Source: an uncultured Lachnospiraceae bacterium (GTDB lineage Bacteria > Bacillota > Clostridia > Lachnospirales > Lachnospiraceae). From it: a DNA stretch of 64,000 nt. Positions 22,640-33,397 of this stretch are shown one piece after another. The notes beneath the pieces are model-generated. The model saw only the letters and a list, made by a program, of their open reading frames with translations. It was not told where the DNA came from and made no database searches. Each line of letters starts with the position of its first letter. Position 1 is the stretch's first letter. The stretch is taken from positions 338,283-402,282 of the forward strand of contig CAMWQW010000001.1 of assembly GCA_947176505.1 (NCBI GenBank), written 5' to 3'. Made by a program: the position numbers and the translations under genes.

Positions 22640-25027
22640 CTACGGTAAATAAGCCGCAATTCTTACATAAAGGTCCTCTAACCATTGAATATAACTCTCA
22701 TCACTCTTGTGCGCTTCATCCGACCACGTAATTCCGACCGCCTCCTCCAAATCGGCTCTGTTATACGTCACTTTGATATATTCATCAACTATCTCCATTT
22801 CATTTCCGTCGTCAAGATAATCCGCTCTGTAATCTGTTGCCGTTTCGCTCTGATCAAGGATAAAATTGCATTCATCCAGATTTCTGATTGTCGCAAAAAG
22901 CATCGCAGCATTAAAAAACAAAATATCGGCATCCGCATCCGTCATGTTCTGTGTCGTCATCTCATACCGGACATCCAGTGATAGCGCCGTTTCCGGCTCT
23001 GTTTCCAGTGTGTGAAGCGCAATACTTCTATATTGCAAGCCATCCGTCTGCGGCAATGCACTTACAAGCGCGCCTGTTTTGGATGCATCTCCCAGATACT
23101 CGGTTCTGTTTTGTGCCAATAAGGAAAATATCTCATCACGAATCGCCCGATTGATACTCACCACGACTACGCGTCCCGCCACGCTCTCCAATTCACTGTT
23201 GATATATTCCATCTCTTCAATATTCTTCTCTTTGACATTAGAGTAATCCGCCTTCACATAAACATAACATTTATCCGATGAATCCGCCGATGAATAATAG
23301 TGCTCTGTTACGGATTCAGACTCTGAAGGAGTATATGTTACCGTAATCTCTTCATTAGGCAGATAGTCTATTGATTCTTCCTCAGCATATGCCGCATTGC
23401 TGCTATCATCTATAATATAGGTTGTTTCATCATTGATATCCGTACCCGGTATGCCGTCGACATTATCCATTTCCTCCGTATAGAACATGTCTTCATGTGC
23501 GATTATACCCTCTGTCTGCCCTTCGATCGCCTCATCCAGCGCTACCACATCCCAGTCTTTATCCAGCATCGGATTTTCGCTGCCTGACTCCGTCGATTCT
23601 TCCTCCGTTGTATCAGGTCTGTAAATATGTGTGGTGAGCCCTGTAGGTCTATATCCGAGTGATGAATACATATATGACTTAAGGCTCGGATTCATTCCAT
23701 AGTCTCCAAACGGGACAATCTCTCTACCCTCATCCAGCAATGACAGTGCTTCTTCATAAGACAATACACTGAATCTGCCTGCCTCTTTGCCGGAAGCGAC
23801 CTGATATATAATAACACTGTTACCCTCTTCTGCCGTATCATAACCGCTAATCCCCGCTATGGTTTCCGGCAGATCGATCCTCATATCCCCCACGGTAAGT
23901 GTAATCTCTCCTTCCCATGTTTTTCCATTAAACAAAGGATTTTTTGTAAATGCCGCCACTGATACGAGCATAACAAAAATGAGAACCGCCACAACTGCCA
24001 CGCCTAAAACTTTCGGCTTATCGGCAATGAATTTAATCCTCTCTTTTACGCTTTTACCGCTCCCGTTCATTGTTGTCGCCGTACACGCAATATCTGACAA
24101 CTTACTTTTTCCTGTAATGATGGAAAGCAATGTCTCCCCGTATGGAATCCTCTCCTCTTCGCCTAATATCAAAAGCGCCTCCTCGTCGCAGGCAAGCTCA
24201 CAGTCTCTCTTGGATAGCACTGCTGCTACCCATACAAGCGGGTTTATCCAATAGACACAAAGGAGTATGCTGCGAAGAAGCGACCAAAAACTGTCACCGT
24301 GTTTTCTGTGGCATAACTCATGCGTCACCACATGTCGGAGTTTACTCTGATCCTGCACGATATCCGGCGTCAGATAAACAGCTTCTCTCCCCGGCATCCC
24401 ATACAAGCATGATGAGGTCAAATAATCCGTCGTGTAAAATTTGATTTTTCCTGCTTTTCCGGCACGCGCATAACACCCTTTCTCCGATGATTTTCTGTAG
24501 CATATACTCTCCAATTCCTTGGGCAGCGCAAACTCCTTACGTCCCTTATGCAGTCTGCGGAAAAAAATAATATTCGTGATAATCATCCATAGAGCAACGG
24601 TAACCACGCCGCCAATCCATATTCCACGCAGTATATCCAGCCAACTGAGTCCAATTCTTCCCGCCACAAAAACACTCGTCGGTCCGTCTGCCGAAGTCGG
24701 AATATCCAAATCTTCTCCCAGCATAAATTCTGCTGCCTGTCCGGCAATCGGATTGTTAAGCGACATGGTAAACTGCGCAGGCTTCTCCAACTGTTCTGTT
24801 ACATCACCGAATCTTTCTTCCAATGCCTCCACTAAATCCATAATACGGAATTCCTCTATAGAACCGATTGCCATATAAATCTGCGCTGATGACGGAATGA
24901 TAAGCCTGAGCGCAACCAAAAGCCATAGAGCATACTGCAGTCTGCCGCTGATCTTTCCCTTAAAAATAATCCGTATCAGCATAATACAAAGTGTTAAAAC
25001 CGAAGATGTTATGATAATCTCTTTCAT
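22640..25027 (-). CDS. M56-family (BlaR1-like) membrane metallopeptidase with DUF4825-like domain
   Basis: 795 residues. Transmembrane helices lie at about 3-22, 33-50 and 135-157. The zinc protease motif HELCH is at 236-240 with a third ligand Glu277 in CELACDE, followed by another helix at about 335-355. The large extracytoplasmic part ends in a DUF4825-like segment (LLAQNRTEYLGDASKTGALVSALP). BlaR1/MecR1 proteins sense an external signal and trigger cleavage of a BlaI repressor; this one has no penicillin-binding domain, so the signal is not obviously a beta-lactam. Its start overlaps the repressor stop by 4 bp. Confidence 0.93.
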   Translation of the reverse strand: MKEIIITSSVLTLCIMLIRIIFKGKISGRLQYALWLLVALRLIIPSSAQIYMAIGSIEEFRIMDLVEALEERFGDVTEQLEKPAQFTMSLNNPIAGQAAEFMLGEDLDIPTSADGPTSVFVAGRIGLSWLDILRGIWIGGVVTVALWMIITNIIFFRRLHKGRKEFALPKELESICYRKSSEKGCYARAGKAGKIKFYTTDYLTSSCLYGMPGREAVYLTPDIVQDQSKLRHVVTHELCHRKHGDSFWSLLRSILLCVYWINPLVWVAAVLSKRDCELACDEEALLILGEEERIPYGETLLSIITGKSKLSDIACTATTMNGSGKSVKERIKFIADKPKVLGVAVVAVLIFVMLVSVAAFTKNPLFNGKTWEGEITLTVGDMRIDLPETIAGISGYDTAEEGNSVIIYQVASGKEAGRFSVLSYEEALSLLDEGREIVPFGDYGMNPSLKSYMYSSLGYRPTGLTTHIYRPDTTEEESTESGSENPMLDKDWDVVALDEAIEGQTEGIIAHEDMFYTEEMDNVDGIPGTDINDETTYIIDDSSNAAYAEEESIDYLPNEEITVTYTPSESESVTEHYYSSADSSDKCYVYVKADYSNVKEKNIEEMEYINSELESVAGRVVVVSINRAIRDEIFSLLAQNRTEYLGDASKTGALVSALPQTDGLQYRSIALHTLETEPETALSLDVRYEMTTQNMTDADADILFFNAAMLFATIRNLDECNFILDQSETATDYRADYLDDGNEMEIVDEYIKVTYNRADLEEAVGITWSDEAHKSDESYIQWLEDLYVRIAAYLP

Positions 25028-25410
25028 TTGCTGTCCATGCCCCTCCTGCGCTTCGCCTGCTCTAAAATATCATATAACTCCTGTATCTCGTCTCCGGACA
25101 ATTCCTGATCTTCCACCATGGCATTGACCATCATGCCAAGACTCCCTCTGTATACTTTCTGCAAAAAGCCTCGTGTCTCCTGCATAGACACTTCCCCGCG
25201 CGGTACAATCGGATAAAATAGCTTCGCCCGTCCATCTTTACGGTGCGCAATCGCCTCCTTCTTTTCCATACGGTTAAGCATAGTGATAATAATGTGTTTA
25301 TCCCATCCGGTCTCTTCGTGCAATGCCGCCGTAAGCTCTGTGATAGTGCTCCCTTCGCTCTCCCAAAGCCGATTCATGATCTTCCATTCCCCATCCGATA
25401 AGCTGACCAT
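25024..25410 (-). CDS. BlaI/MecI-family repressor
   Basis: 128 residues. A winged helix-turn-helix (about 4-75, LSDGEWKIMNRLWESEGSTITELTAAL) and a C-terminal dimerisation helix region (about 80-125) that is the usual cleavage target. Coupled by a 4-bp overlap to the M56 gene, as in blaI-blaR1 operons. It probably represses its own operon through the repeats described just upstream. Confidence 0.95.
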   Translation of the reverse strand: MVSLSDGEWKIMNRLWESEGSTITELTAALHEETGWDKHIIITMLNRMEKKEAIAHRKDGRAKLFYPIVPRGEVSMQETRGFLQKVYRGSLGMMVNAMVEDQELSGDEIQELYDILEQAKRRRGMDSK

Positions 25411-25441
25411 ATATGATATCCGTCCTTTCCTGCTATGTATT

Positions 25442-25509
25442 GGTATATTTTGGTATACAATCGTTTACCTTTATGTGATTATGATATACTTAAGGTATAC
25501 GTTTGTCAA
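25442..25509 (-). promoter_or_regulatory. Promoter and paired operator of the first BlaI/M56 operon
   Basis: Minus-strand TTGACA-N17-TATCAT (25481-25509) fits the sigma-A consensus. On the + strand GGTATAC occurs at 25494-25500, inside the spacer, and again at 25452-25458 downstream of the start point, 42 bp apart. Each has a related half-site 10-11 bp away (GATATAC at 25483-25489, GGTATAT at 25442-25448). Placement over the promoter fits BlaI-type repression. Confidence 0.7.
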
Positions 25510-28815: not shown

Positions 28816-30639
28816 CTATTTTATCACGATACTTCTAATAGATTCCTCTGTCATGGGATGATAAATAATATCCATCACATACCCCTCCGGAAGTGTGGAC
28901 TTCACCCAATCATCATACTCTTGCCGATTCATCGGCTGTACATCGGTATCCTCTGTTGTCTTGCCATCTTCCAAAATATAATACAAAAGCCCGTCGCCGT
29001 CTGTATCCATTTCACTAGGAAAATCCTCGCTGTTAATCTGTCCGTCCCATGATGTTATATGATACTTTAATTGATAACTGTCTGTACCTACGTCATACTG
29101 ATATAAAGTATAGGGCCATATCCCTTTTTCCTCAGGGTCTTTCCCGTGATTATGGGAGTCTGACACTTTAATCAGTCCATTATTATAATAAGTGGTATCC
29201 ACCCATGCCGTCAATTCCTCCCGCAGTGTGTCTTTTTCTGCATCATAGTCATAGACCACCTCGCACATACTCGCCATGTTACCTGTGCTAAAACTAAAAA
29301 TTAGTTCTTGTCTTCCATCCCCGTCCACATCCAATATTGCAAATGCGTTATTCTCAAATCCCCACCTCTCATCAACATTATATTCTCTACCGTTTGGATC
29401 TGTATGTTCCGTCATAATCTGCTCCAGTACTTCCGCATATTTGGCATAGGATTGCAGCAATTTTTCCTGAAAATCCTGATATCCCACATATAAATACCGC
29501 ACCGGCGCAATCGCTTCATTCTCCGGACAAAATACGGATACGCTGTAACCTGAGAAATAATATTCTTCCGCCGATGGCATCCTGCTTTCACCTTTGTAAT
29601 TCAGATAACGTATCCCTTCCGGACCCTGCCATTCACGCGTCCCATAATACAAAATGCCGAAGCTTTCCTGCCCGCTCCATTCTGCTACCGCCTCCTGTAA
29701 CGGCATTACGGAAACTGCCTCAACAAGCGGTCTGAAATCTTTATCAATATCAAAAACTGCTCCTCCCGCACCACGCAGATAAATATCTATTTCCCTTGAG
29801 CGGGCGGCATTGTATGTAATTAAATAACTGTCTGTAAAATCACCGTTTTTATCAAATCCGTACAGCATTGTATCAAACGTCTGAATCGTTCCGTCCTGCA
29901 CAAAATACAGGTTAAAACTCGTTGCAAGACATAGTTTCTCCGGAAGATTGACTTTATCTCTGATATCTTCCAGAATACCCTCTATGCCTGACTCATAAAT
30001 ATTATTGTGCATCAGTACAACGCTTTTCTTATTCTTCAAATCATCCAGATACCATGACAGCTTTCCATTATAAGGCACTGCACTTTTAGCAACAAGAAAA
30101 CTTCCATACAATGTAACTGCTGCCATAATAATGCCTGCTGCCAGCCTGTATTTTCTTTTCCCCGAAGCATTGACCGCCGATAATTTTAAATCCAGAAAAT
30201 CCTCCTCATCCCGGTTAAGTCCCTGTATATTTACAGTAATTACAGACTTATCTTTTAAGAAAAACTGGCAATAACTTTTTCTCTTGATATACCACTTCAC
30301 ATCTTCCGCCTTAATCTCAGAAATGGCATTCCATGATTCACTTGGCAGCTTCTTTCTGCTATAACATATCCACAGATAAAAGCCGTAGACCGTAATGCCT
30401 ATCCACCACACCAGACAGAGAAGCAAAACCGGTATATTCCTATACAGCCTGCCAAACTGACACAGAGAATACAGGTGGAACCAGCTGATACAATAAAAAA
30501 TCAGATTGACCGGTCTTGTCCCCACATACCATATAGTTTTCCAGAAAAACTGCGCCCTGCTATTTCCGTATGACAAGTCCTTTATATTCCCATGTTCTTC
30601 CTTCATCGGCTGACTCATATTTTGCTTTGGTTCCGCCAT
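28816..30639 (-). CDS. Large membrane protein with extracytoplasmic FG-GAP-like segment, overlapping the M56-BNR gene
   Basis: 607 residues. Predicted transmembrane helices lie at about 40-58, 67-92 and 165-185, then a long extracytoplasmic region. DVDGDGRQELIFSFS (around 460) and MDTDGDGLLYYILEDG (around 560) look like calcium-binding FG-GAP-type loops. I do not recognise a family for the whole protein. Its 5' end overlaps the M56-BNR gene by 80 bp in another frame, a strong sign of coupled expression. A later ATG at 30606 is possible but lacks a ribosome site; a GGAGG is 12 nt before 30639. Confidence 0.8.
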   Translation of the reverse strand: MAEPKQNMSQPMKEEHGNIKDLSYGNSRAQFFWKTIWYVGTRPVNLIFYCISWFHLYSLCQFGRLYRNIPVLLLCLVWWIGITVYGFYLWICYSRKKLPSESWNAISEIKAEDVKWYIKRKSYCQFFLKDKSVITVNIQGLNRDEEDFLDLKLSAVNASGKRKYRLAAGIIMAAVTLYGSFLVAKSAVPYNGKLSWYLDDLKNKKSVVLMHNNIYESGIEGILEDIRDKVNLPEKLCLATSFNLYFVQDGTIQTFDTMLYGFDKNGDFTDSYLITYNAARSREIDIYLRGAGGAVFDIDKDFRPLVEAVSVMPLQEAVAEWSGQESFGILYYGTREWQGPEGIRYLNYKGESRMPSAEEYYFSGYSVSVFCPENEAIAPVRYLYVGYQDFQEKLLQSYAKYAEVLEQIMTEHTDPNGREYNVDERWGFENNAFAILDVDGDGRQELIFSFSTGNMASMCEVVYDYDAEKDTLREELTAWVDTTYYNNGLIKVSDSHNHGKDPEEKGIWPYTLYQYDVGTDSYQLKYHITSWDGQINSEDFPSEMDTDGDGLLYYILEDGKTTEDTDVQPMNRQEYDDWVKSTLPEGYVMDIIYHPMTEESIRSIVIK

Positions 30640-32881
30640 ATTCCGAATATTCCTCCATTCCTATATACAGGTATAAAATACCATCCTGCATCTCCGGCGC
30701 ATAAGCCATAGTGTAATACTGTGGCACATCTGTAAGGTCCTGCTTTTCCCATGTTTTCCCGCCATCCTGTGTCCGCCAGATATCCGGTGTCTCTGAATCA
30801 CGAAAGGTTACGAAGCCTACGTTGTTATTAATGAAAACAGCACCTGACATCAAAGAATACCCCTTCGTCATCATATGCGGTCCCGCAGTTCCCACATACT
30901 GCCACGACTCCCCGCCGTCTTCTGTGTGAAATAAGATTGACGTTTCCCGCCAGACAACACGTTCTCCCGTAAAAATCAAGAACCCTTCCTGTCCGTTTTC
31001 CGGAAAATCCACATAAATTTTCCTGCTTCCAAATAACTTATTTCTTACAACAGATTTCTTAAAACTCTGACTTTCCTCGTCATAAAAAACAACGGAAAAC
31101 GGCACTACACTGTCTCCGCCATATGCAAATATAATCTTATTTTCATCTATCTGATAACTGCCGGGCTGCAAAGAGGTCAGTTTCCCATCCATTTCGTCCC
31201 CTCTCCCAAAGAGTACTTCCAACGTGACCGGCACCTCTTTCCACACCCCGTCTGCACCACTTACCAGCAAAACGCCCGTGCTGGTATCAACCTGATACGC
31301 ATTTTCAATCACATCTAACGTCAAAGAGGCATCTTCCCCGGCATCTGTTTCTGAAAGTGCTGTTTTCATCCCATACACTAAATCAAGCTTTGGAATATCG
31401 GAAAAGTCCGCCTGCGCATACTGCTCCATATATGCCCGAATAACATCTTCCGTTTCCGCGACTCCCTCCAGTTCAAAGACGTAATCCTTCACCATGCGAA
31501 TCCGCAGCGTCCAGTCAAAATATGCATAATAACCGTCTTTTTCATGCGCTATCTGTGCCCTGTCTTTTATCTTCTGCGGAAACTCTGCAAGTTCACTCTC
31601 CTCATGCCCGATATAATATTTGCAGATTACCGAAAAAACAGCCTCATTCTTATCTCCCGCAAGCAATCTGCTGTATACAGACTCGGCTATTGCATACCAC
31701 GAGTCTTCCGAATCCCACTCCGATGCCCTGCTCTGATCATCAAAATACGAAGCATATCGCTGCAATAACAGAAGAACTGCATCGCCATAGTTATCTGCAT
31801 CGTGCACCCGAACCTGCCAAGGTCCTTCCGCCTCATAGGGAAGTTCTGCATACTCTTTCCATTCATAAATATCTTTCCTATTCCGCTCGATATAATAAGC
31901 ATCCTCAGAAACAGGTTCCAGTTTTATCATCTCATCGATTGCCGTCTGTGTGAACCCGTCCGGCAGATCATATTCTTCATAAAAAAAATGTTCCGCGCGC
32001 TCCACTTCTTTTCTTATCTTATAACTCTCATATATACCGCCGCCAATACGATAAAGGTTAAACGTCACATCCAGCAATAAAATCCCAATCGTGCAATATG
32101 CCAGAAAATCCCACCTTTTCTCCTCCCTCATAATCGCAGAGATTCTGGCTTTCATCATCCGTTTTCCATGATAAAAATACGTTGAATACGCCTGTCCTTT
32201 CACCCGCTCCATTTTTAAGCATTCCAGCAGCGCATATCCGTACTCTTTTCTCGCAGATATGTCTTTGCCTTCCACTACCGCCTCATCGCAGGCTACCTCC
32301 ATATCCTGATAACTGATTGCTTTTATCAGATAAATAAGCGGCTGAAACCATAAAAGCGACTGTATGAACAGCATAAATAACTTGTAGAGCATATCCCTAT
32401 GCCGCATGTGATTACATTCATGTAAAAAAATGAAATGCAGAACCTGTCCGCTGTATTCTCTGTCCGGCAATATCAGAACCGGATCCTTAAAGCCAATTAG
32501 AAACGGTTCCCTGACTTCTTTGCTCCGATAAAGAAAAGACCTGCCGCTTCTCCTTTCATGCAATCCCGTTTCCAGAACTGCCGCCTCCAGACTCTCCCTG
32601 ATATCCGGCTCCGACACAATACTTAGCCGGTTGATGCAGCTTCTGCGGAACCGCACATAATTCCAATAATGCAATGCCATCACAAGTACTGCCGATACAA
32701 ACCAAATCAGTACTGCCAGTTTCTTCCATTGAGGATACAGCAGATAAGGCAGACCGAAATGATTTACGACCCGGTTTACGAAATAATCCAGCCACATATT
32801 CTTTCCCAGAAAAAGAAAATGCCACAATAAAAGCTGTAGTGCCAGAATCGCCCATATCACCTTTCTCCATTTTGCCCTCAT
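30560..32881 (-). CDS. M56-family (BlaR1-like) metallopeptidase fused to C-terminal BNR/Asp-box repeats
   Basis: 773 residues from the ATG at 32881. Transmembrane helices lie at about 8-26, 53-72 and 165-190. The zinc motif HECNH is at 154-158 with Glu195 in MEVACDE, and another helix is near 250-270. The C-terminal 120 residues contain three Asp-box-like units, HTEDGGESW, RTQDGGKTW and ESADEGRTW, typical of sialidase, VPS10 and photosystem-assembly beta-propellers. Known BlaR1 relatives carry a penicillin-binding sensor there, so this may be a sensor for a glycan or protein ligand. The BlaI-type repressor gene lies 54 bp upstream. Confidence 0.9.
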   Translation of the reverse strand: MRAKWRKVIWAILALQLLLWHFLFLGKNMWLDYFVNRVVNHFGLPYLLYPQWKKLAVLIWFVSAVLVMALHYWNYVRFRRSCINRLSIVSEPDIRESLEAAVLETGLHERRSGRSFLYRSKEVREPFLIGFKDPVLILPDREYSGQVLHFIFLHECNHMRHRDMLYKLFMLFIQSLLWFQPLIYLIKAISYQDMEVACDEAVVEGKDISARKEYGYALLECLKMERVKGQAYSTYFYHGKRMMKARISAIMREEKRWDFLAYCTIGILLLDVTFNLYRIGGGIYESYKIRKEVERAEHFFYEEYDLPDGFTQTAIDEMIKLEPVSEDAYYIERNRKDIYEWKEYAELPYEAEGPWQVRVHDADNYGDAVLLLLQRYASYFDDQSRASEWDSEDSWYAIAESVYSRLLAGDKNEAVFSVICKYYIGHEESELAEFPQKIKDRAQIAHEKDGYYAYFDWTLRIRMVKDYVFELEGVAETEDVIRAYMEQYAQADFSDIPKLDLVYGMKTALSETDAGEDASLTLDVIENAYQVDTSTGVLLVSGADGVWKEVPVTLEVLFGRGDEMDGKLTSLQPGSYQIDENKIIFAYGGDSVVPFSVVFYDEESQSFKKSVVRNKLFGSRKIYVDFPENGQEGFLIFTGERVVWRETSILFHTEDGGESWQYVGTAGPHMMTKGYSLMSGAVFINNNVGFVTFRDSETPDIWRTQDGGKTWEKQDLTDVPQYYTMAYAPEMQDGILYLYIGMEEYSEYGGTKAKYESADEGRTWEYKGLVIRK

Positions 32882-32935
32882 AACAATCAAAATCCTTCCT
32901 TTATGCTCACCTGCACCTTTACTTAATCTACACTT

Positions 32936-33313
32936 CTACTTAGTCTGCGTATCCTTACTCTTTTCTTCAATAAATTCTTTTAGTTCTTCTATATCCTGAG
33001 ATGTGAGTCCATCGCCGTCATATAGTGCCGTCACAAAATTTTTTAACGAATTTTGGTACATCTTTCGCAAAATATTTCTGCTTTCTTTTTGCAGATATTC
33101 CTCTTCTTTTACCAAAGGAGTATACCAGTTGATTTTCCCAATCTTCTCCACGCTGACAAAACCTTTCGCCTCCAAGCGGTTTAGAAAAGATAAAATAGTC
33201 GGCGCGGCTACATCCTTTTTTAGATGTTGCTCAATTTCCATTCTGTTGACTGGTCTGTTATATTCCCATATAATCATCATAATTTCCAGCTCAGATTCCG
33301 GTAGTCTTTTCAT
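32936..33313 (-). CDS. BlaI/MecI-family repressor
   Basis: 125 residues. Winged helix-turn-helix (about 3-75, LPESELEIMMIIWEYNRPVNRMEIEQHL) plus a C-terminal dimerisation part with the MYQNSLKNFVTALYDGDG segment common to the family. It heads the operon with the M56-BNR gene. The promoter upstream has two copies of a 12-bp operator-like repeat unlike that of the first BlaI module in the window, suggesting separate regulons. Confidence 0.95.
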   Translation of the reverse strand: MKRLPESELEIMMIIWEYNRPVNRMEIEQHLKKDVAAPTILSFLNRLEAKGFVSVEKIGKINWYTPLVKEEEYLQKESRNILRKMYQNSLKNFVTALYDGDGLTSQDIEELKEFIEEKSKDTQTK

Positions 33314-33342
33314 GTCTGCTCTTCTTTCTCCTATATTTTTTG

Positions 33343-33397
33343 CATTTGCCTAAATTGAATTTATACTTATTCTACATTTGCCTAAAATATATGTCAA
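33343..33397 (-). promoter_or_regulatory. Promoter with two operator copies for the second BlaI/M56 operon
   Basis: Minus-strand TTGACA-N17-TAGAAT (33369-33397) is a near-consensus sigma-A promoter. CATTTGCCTAAA (+ strand) occurs at 33375-33386, inside the -35/-10 spacer, and at 33343-33354 just downstream of the start, 32 bp or about three helical turns apart. Both copies would block polymerase when bound. Confidence 0.75.

Follow-up and report, generated by a model that had tools for sequence, protein, structure and literature searches.

A BlaR1 relative from a gut bacterium in which a small propeller-like repeat domain appears to replace the penicillin-binding part

Introduction

BlaR1 is best known as a sensor in drug resistance. 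In the 64,000-nucleotide stretch of an uncultured Lachnospiraceae bacterium analyzed here (contig CAMWQW010000001.1, positions 338,283 to 402,282; hereafter "the window"), a minus-strand gene (30560..32881), identified from its open reading frame (ORF), Pfam matches, and an Asp-box motif scan, encodes a protein of 773 amino acids (aa) in which an M56 protease is fused to Asp-box repeats. It is the middle gene of a three-gene operon, the order of which, namely, BlaI-type repressor, M56-Asp-box protein, and membrane partner, is the same in the loci examined. Judged by its sequence, this gut bacterium's relative of BlaR1 has its penicillin-binding part replaced by a small propeller-like repeat domain; a drug-alarm switch has seemingly been rewired to sense something else. 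An initial annotation of the window had proposed a protease of this kind, paired with BlaI and carrying Asp-box units instead of a penicillin-binding domain. The observation behind it is confirmed, and the interpretation is partly supported, in that the M56 core, the replacement by Asp-box repeats, and the BlaI pairing are all conserved. The third operon gene, the repeated promoter boxes, and similar fusions in other genomes go beyond it.

The M56 protease core

The gene starts with an ATG at 32881 (minus strand, as for all features of this operon). A TTG start at 32890, which is also listed, is unlikely, because MRAKWRK or a close variant of it recurs at the ATG in orthologues. Residues 53-250 (32132..32725) make up the BlaR1-type M56 domain (PF05569, E 9.3e-36), and a Peptidase_M56 score of 123.9 bits against a cut-off of 31 places the protein in the M56 family. 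The full-length BlaR1 model of NCBIfam (NF000326) scores 85.3 bits, below its cut-off of 400. The zinc motif HECNH (residues 154-158; 32408..32422) is seen in the sequence and in the BlaR1 alignment, and each of the five sequences of alignment A2 that extend over it keeps HECxH. Glu195 (32297..32299), the presumed third zinc ligand, was named together with HECNH in the initial annotation, and both residue assignments hold in the comparison with Staphylococcus aureus BlaR1 (8exp; phmmer 5.5e-7). In this alignment, read by hand, H154, E155, H158, and E195 pair with H201, E202, H205, and E242 of BlaR1, and D199, Y214, L218, and R246 pair with D246, Y261, I265, and R294. In the available part of PMC9834060, these eight BlaR1 residues are described as ligands of the zinc, as the general base, or as conserved residues of the active site. 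The autocleavage residue Phe284 of BlaR1 falls on Tyr237 in the ungapped alignment by hand, or on Phe236 if one inserted residue is allowed; Phe236 and R246 are invariant in all six rows of alignment A2.

The Asp-box repeat domain

Residues 530-773 (30563..31294) constitute the Asp-box repeat domain, as delimited by alignment, profile, self-comparison, and a blade model. The motif scan found three boxes of the strict pattern [ST]xDxGx[ST][WF], i.e., TEDGGESW (residues 653-660; 30902..30925), TQDGGKTW (704-711; 30749..30772), and SADEGRTW (757-764; 30590..30613), and a degenerate box, YDEESQSF (600-607; 31061..31084), which is strict in the related lipoprotein L039. When residues 281-773 were shuffled 20,000 times, 62 shuffles contained at least one strict box and none contained two or more, so that the three units of the initial annotation, at 653, 704, and 757, are borne out. 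In hidden Markov model searches, in which a failure to find the repeats was to count against the annotation, this protein and its relatives differ. In this protein, BNR (PF02012; 21.7 bits vs 27) and Sortilin-Vps10 (PF15902; 26.1 bits vs 33) stay below cut-off, as do BNR_2 and PSII_BNR, all four matches falling in the last 130 residues. Both cut-offs are passed by four of the nine domain-bearing relatives scanned (L072, L075, L080, and L082) but not by the other five (L073, L074, L079, L081, and L083), and in alignment A2 each of the six sequences has a Sortilin-Vps10 and a BNR match at E up to 0.05. A penicillin-binding domain went undetected: no penicillin-binding protein (PBP) or transpeptidase model is listed among Pfam matches at E up to 1, a range in which HMMER's filters remove most of what lies above about 0.1.

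A profile of 234 positions, derived from an Asp-box alignment of six relatives over 261 columns, had 37 matches in the PDB at E up to 1. The best match is Ycf48/HCF136 (8e-9), and others are xyloglucanases, cellulases, arabinofuranosidases, dispase autolysis-inducing protein, sialidases, and sortilins; DREN-APAZ (E 0.63), in the last row, bears a name of a different kind. When 19 related domains were compared with themselves, off-diagonal matches appeared at E 4e-22, 1.5e-9, and 9.5e-5, and the repeat period is near 50 residues. In a blade model trained on 62 blades from other proteins, blades 3-5 of this protein score 37.7, 38.0, and 36.5 bits, against a best score of 4.2 in 200 shuffles. Blade 2 scores 32.9 in the orthologue L008 and 40.5 in L039, scores that are not independent since both proteins are in the training set, and the first unit, which is a hairpin only, scores 10.0 in L039 and -2.6 here. 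From these scores, four blade repeats preceded by an N-terminal Asp-box hairpin are a fair count for the relatives, with blade 2 degenerate in this copy. A count of five complete blades, suggested by the five strict Asp-boxes of L039, was rejected, as the blade model backs only four full blades and the hairpin.

Membrane topology and the middle region

Hydropathy peaks of the M56-Asp-box protein lie near residues 6-29, 51-76, 168-189, and 258-277, the last of which is the predicted last transmembrane helix (32051..32110). Because positive residues precede both helix 1 and the last helix and follow helix 2, the N-terminus is predicted to lie inside, the protease in the cytoplasm, and the C-terminus outside. 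The last helix is followed by a middle region (about residues 300-525; 31307..31984), delimited by sequence comparison, to which no fold is assigned. This region is absent from L008, and thus the Asp-box domain can come almost directly after the last helix. It matches the corresponding region of lipoprotein L039 (E 5e-11). It was also compared with the N-terminal regions of five single-helix Asp-box proteins, but a link to these was rejected (hhalign E 0.27; 0.17 for L039 against the same proteins).

The three-gene operon and its promoter

Conservation of the operon was followed by searching 19 chosen loci for its three genes with tblastn. Among these, 13 belong to the same clade (the window, L001, L002, L003, L076-L079, and L179-L183), of which some may share a genome, e.g., L001 may lie in G1072, the source of L182. 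The repressor gene is found upstream of the M56-Asp-box gene in 12/12 clade loci, L001 starting inside the gene, and a partner homologue is found downstream in 13/13, separated in L078 by a gap of about 0.7 kb. The gene body is interrupted in L003 and incomplete in L183. In L003, a metagenome assembly, the close relative (L003:4001-5230) is without an internal stretch.

The upstream gene (32936..33313) encodes a 125-aa repressor of the BlaI/MecI type (PF03965, 92.6 bits vs 22.6; phmmer to MecI 1okr, 2e-12), in agreement with the BlaI pairing in the initial annotation. The S. aureus repressor is cut at an Asn-Phe bond. The aligned position is Ala-Leu in the window's repressor and altogether in 9 of 11 aligned repressors (from the clade, L072, and L103), and Ala-Phe in L073 and L074. 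An Asn-Phe pair in the window's repressor (KNFV) was rejected as the cleavage site, as the alignment places the cut at the Ala-Leu four residues on. PADLOC reported no match for the M56-Asp-box protein or the partner; its three CARF3/Csa3 model matches to the repressor (9.9e-6, 0.0048, and 0.006), in the first 57-67 residues, are taken as a shared helix-turn-helix. The downstream gene (28816..30639) encodes the 607-aa membrane partner, its listed start overlapping the M56 gene by 80 bases. A partner homologue in genome G133 (L080:6265-7488) matches YcxB-like (PF14317, 5.5e-9), which offers a hint about the inner domain of the partner.

Promoter comparison across loci revealed a sigma-70-like promoter, TTGACA-17-TAGAAT (33369..33397), upstream of the repressor gene. 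Sequence comparison further revealed two repeated boxes that are presumed operators: box 1, TTAGGCAAATGTAGAAT (33369..33385), lies inside the promoter (spacer and -10 region), and box 2, TTAGGCAAATGCAAAAA (33337..33353), lies 32 bp downstream of it. This 32-bp distance is shared by the window, L180, L181, L182, and L183, and the same promoter with a related box was seen by eye in L002, L003, L076, L077, and L079. Within its own genome, the box has one exact match, at this locus, and one match with one mismatch, upstream of a BlaI gene on contig C20, where a second box follows 29 bp on. When up to two mismatches are allowed, tandem boxes occur at these two places only. On contig C8, one isolated box with two mismatches falls within an ORF and was rejected as an operator. 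The C20 operon (L103:6461-10914) consists of BlaI, lipoprotein, and M56 genes and has the same tandem box type, and therefore cross-talk with the operon described here is possible.

Distribution and separate origins

The Asp-box domain was found in 14 of 299 genomes of the family (profile search, 1e-5). By reading, it is carried in six of these (G000, which is this genome, and G022, G037, G264, G223, and G198) by an M56 protein with HExxH; in the other eight it occurs in lipoproteins, single-helix proteins, or partner-like proteins. A class sample gave profile matches in 21 of 391 genomes (1e-6), five of them with an M56 protein containing HExxH (G000, G022, G198, G603, and G339); L067 and L070 of this sample gave no reading frame. 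In the phylum sample, 35 of 398 genomes matched, many through general Asp-box proteins, and the 28 new loci read, which were limited to matches with a locus, contained one new M56 fusion with HExxH (G700). The family, class, and phylum samples overlap. A scan of viral contigs with the domain alignment gave 21 pattern matches, among which no relative was confirmed.

In G603, both Pfam domain models are over cut-off in one protein, so that the domain pair is visible from Pfam alone. A BlaI-type gene adjoins the fusions of G603, G339, G198, and G700, that of G198 being recognized by reading and alignment and not reported by tblastn at 1e-4. Two further kinds of Asp-box protein were met. In G554 of the class sample (L075:5076-7337), a protein with an M56-like part (55.5 bits) and Asp-boxes is without HExxH and stands beside an ordinary BlaI-M56 pair, and is perhaps a protease-dead receptor. 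In G701 and G955 (L147 and L148), Asp-box proteins have N-termini that, as judged by eye, look like the last M56 helix of the fusions, and these proteins are perhaps receptors that lost the protease part.

A FastTree phylogeny of 37 M56 cores over 215 columns, for which sampling was partial (16 of 30 further loci were used), supported the clade of the window's protein at 0.999, and placed G198 and G339 in a clade with support 0.923 and G603 and G700 in one with support 0.935, several inner nodes being weak (0.05-0.53). As the other fusions are placed elsewhere in the tree, propeller sensors were probably recruited more than once. The simplest reading would be three or more recruitments of the Asp-box domain by M56 proteins, loss in between being the alternative.

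Other BlaI-M56 pairs of this genome

All 12 BlaI matches in the genome have an M56 gene nearby. Once split matches are merged, there are 14 M56 loci, two of which are cut by contig ends. The C-terminal domains of the M56 proteins vary, e.g., M23 or DUF4825, and the gene at 30560..32881 is the one match to the Asp-box domain. A second BlaI-M56 pair lies in the window at 22643-25464, its M56 protein (an 809-aa frame) carrying DUF4825, and the C-terminal part of another M56-like gene reaches the contig end (63796-63999). On contig C8 (L141:1696-3972), an M56 protein beside a BlaI gene ends in an M23 (LytM-type) peptidase domain, another unusual outer domain.

Proposed mechanism and its alternatives

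By analogy with the staphylococcal system, the operon would encode a BlaR1/BlaI-like proteolytic derepression switch in which the penicillin sensor has been replaced by a small Asp-box domain of the beta-propeller type, a reading to which we assign a probability of roughly 60%. At rest, a BlaI-type dimer on the two promoter boxes would keep repressor, protease, and partner low. The M56 protein would sit in the membrane with its protease towards the cytoplasm and its middle region and Asp-box domain outside. An outside signal, perhaps presented by the partner or the cell wall, would be bound by the Asp-box domain, either alone or together with the partner, and would shift the last membrane helix and free the active site, probably with self-cleavage near Tyr235-Phe236; control of a cytoplasmic protease by an outer domain through the last helix is proposed by analogy. 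The protease would then cut the repressor, probably at the aligned Ala-Leu, inducing the whole operon including the partner. In the aligned repressors P1' remains hydrophobic, and thermolysin-like proteases tolerate such a residue there. A self-contained regulon would be consistent with the outcome of the box search and with Clostridium thermocellum, in which BlaI regulons that are small, self-regulated, and equipped with paired sites have been recorded (available part of PMC8457756). Of this scheme, the motifs, repeats, operon, and boxes are read directly from sequence, and topology, fold, repressor binding, cleavage, signal, and output are inferred.

Several observations weigh against this reading. 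For the domain, blade 2 of this copy scores 4.5 in the blade model, i.e., at shuffle level, and AlphaFold gave a predicted local distance difference test (pLDDT) value of 33 for the full protein (one homologue) and 37 for residues 527-773 (four homologue rows), from alignments that are too shallow. Two hydropathy peaks precede the protease domain, vs three helices in BlaR1. Therefore, the Nout part of the Nout, Cout topology given for BlaR1 in the available part of PMC9834060 is not transferable to this protein. The same part of that paper terms Phe almost invariant as the P1' residue of BlaI cleavage, and P1' is Leu at the Ala-Leu position of the repressor here. For the promoter, L179 has a pattern match for the second box only and no promoter match, L072 has the promoter with a box that deviates, and in L078 a related box is accompanied by a different promoter pattern. 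At two mismatches, the box search gave 19 matches vs 12 for a reversed control; thus, weight is placed only on tandem near-exact sites, and single weak sites mean little.

Alternatively, the Asp-box domain may mainly dock the partner, which in some orthologues carries LysM and would sense the cell wall, M56-BlaI then reporting the partner's state. We regard this as unlikely, though it deserves weight. A partner homologue is adjacent in all 13 clade loci, a protein of G660 unites a partner-like part (34% identity, residues 41-382) with three Asp-boxes, and in G133 an Asp-box lipoprotein adjoins a partner homologue; the G660 fusion and the G133 neighborhood thus tie the partner to Asp-boxes. Of four partner homologues scanned, L003 and L076 have LysM over cut-off, which faintly hints at the cell wall as the thing sensed, but the window's partner and that of G133 do not. 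Moreover, the fusions of G603, G339, G198, and G700 stand without a partner homologue at 1e-4 (tblastn) in the stretch fetched around them.

It is very improbable that the Asp-box domain is a surface-tethered glycosidase or lyase, with the protease a side issue. Sialidases, xyloglucanases, and arabinofuranosidases are indeed among its profile relatives in the PDB, and NCBIfam gives a weak match to a glycosylhydrolase model (20.8 of 175 bits), but the domain appears to have only four blades and a hairpin, and at the profile level, as opposed to residue by residue, no glycosidase model is over cut-off in Pfam or NCBIfam. Decay deserves as little credence: the fusion would be real but the system decaying or functionless. 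The distribution is patchy, a close orthologue (E below 1e-60) occurring in 7 of 60 genomes of the genus, from which the gene is judged to be accessory, and being interrupted in G1102; the L003 copy also lacks an internal stretch. On the other hand, motifs are intact in distant orthologues. Two of the six orthologues compared, L182 and L183, have dS <1 (dS was saturated for the other four); against these two, the ratio of nonsynonymous to synonymous substitution rates (dN/dS) comes to about 0.16 and 0.19 over the whole gene, and the Asp-box part by itself gives about 0.18 and 0.19. That beta-lactam sensing is retained as in BlaR1, for which the pairing of M56 and BlaI as in bla operons would speak, is the least probable reading, given that no PBP or transpeptidase model is listed at E up to 1 and that the NCBIfam BlaR1 score is 85.3 bits vs 400.

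Returning to the derepression switch, a broader idea can be put forward tentatively, namely, that M56-BlaI is a general plug-in signaling chassis into which small Asp-box propellers were inserted independently three times or more. Here, the middle region, the co-transcribed membrane partner, and a propeller that would be unusually small for the Asp-box type might together form a surface receptor that controls repressor proteolysis and, through direct cleavage of the repressor, routes a propeller-bound signal to transcription. If the core does read other surface signals through swapped outer domains, uncharacterised BlaI-M56 operons become a testable receptor class, whose size is indicated by the 12 BlaI genes in this genome, and the conserved operon with its promoter boxes is a ready reporter for a ligand search.

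Comparison with known systems

Literature searches returned no paper joining M56, BlaR1 and sortilin, or "M56 family" and BNR, with subscription papers and domain databases, where the pair may be known, lying outside the search; among the titles listed by broader searches, none concerned an M56/BlaR1-propeller pairing. The available part of PMC2716378 has no occurrence of BlaR or M56, and the sole paper found with both BlaR1 and propeller, as far as its text was available, is a Chryseobacterium genome description.

With the BlaR1/MecR1-BlaI/MecI systems of Staphylococcus and Bacillus, the present system shares an M56 zinc-protease core whose active-site positions match, a C-terminal domain that comes after the last membrane helix, a BlaI-type gene beside it, and repeated boxes in its own promoter. 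It differs in its C-terminal Asp-box repeats in place of a detectable PBP domain, its third gene for a membrane partner, its repressor P1' Leu, and the two hydropathy peaks, vs three helices, before the protease domain. The genome's other M56-BlaI pairs have BlaI beside M56 in the same way, but are without the Asp-box domain. The domain itself resembles Asp-box beta-propellers (Ycf48/HCF136, sialidases, GH74, and sortilin/Vps10) in its repeat period near 50 and its profile matches to solved propellers, but differs in its probable four blades and hairpin and in its fusion to an M56 protease; known Asp-box propellers have 6, 7, or 10 blades, 5-bladed ones having short Asp-boxes only (table 2, in the available part of PMC2716378). 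Lastly, although its site sequence differs, the operon is built like those of BlaI_1845 and BlaI_0696 in C. thermocellum, which, in the part of PMC8457756 available, combine BlaI, BlaR1-like, and hypothetical genes under self-regulation from paired sites.

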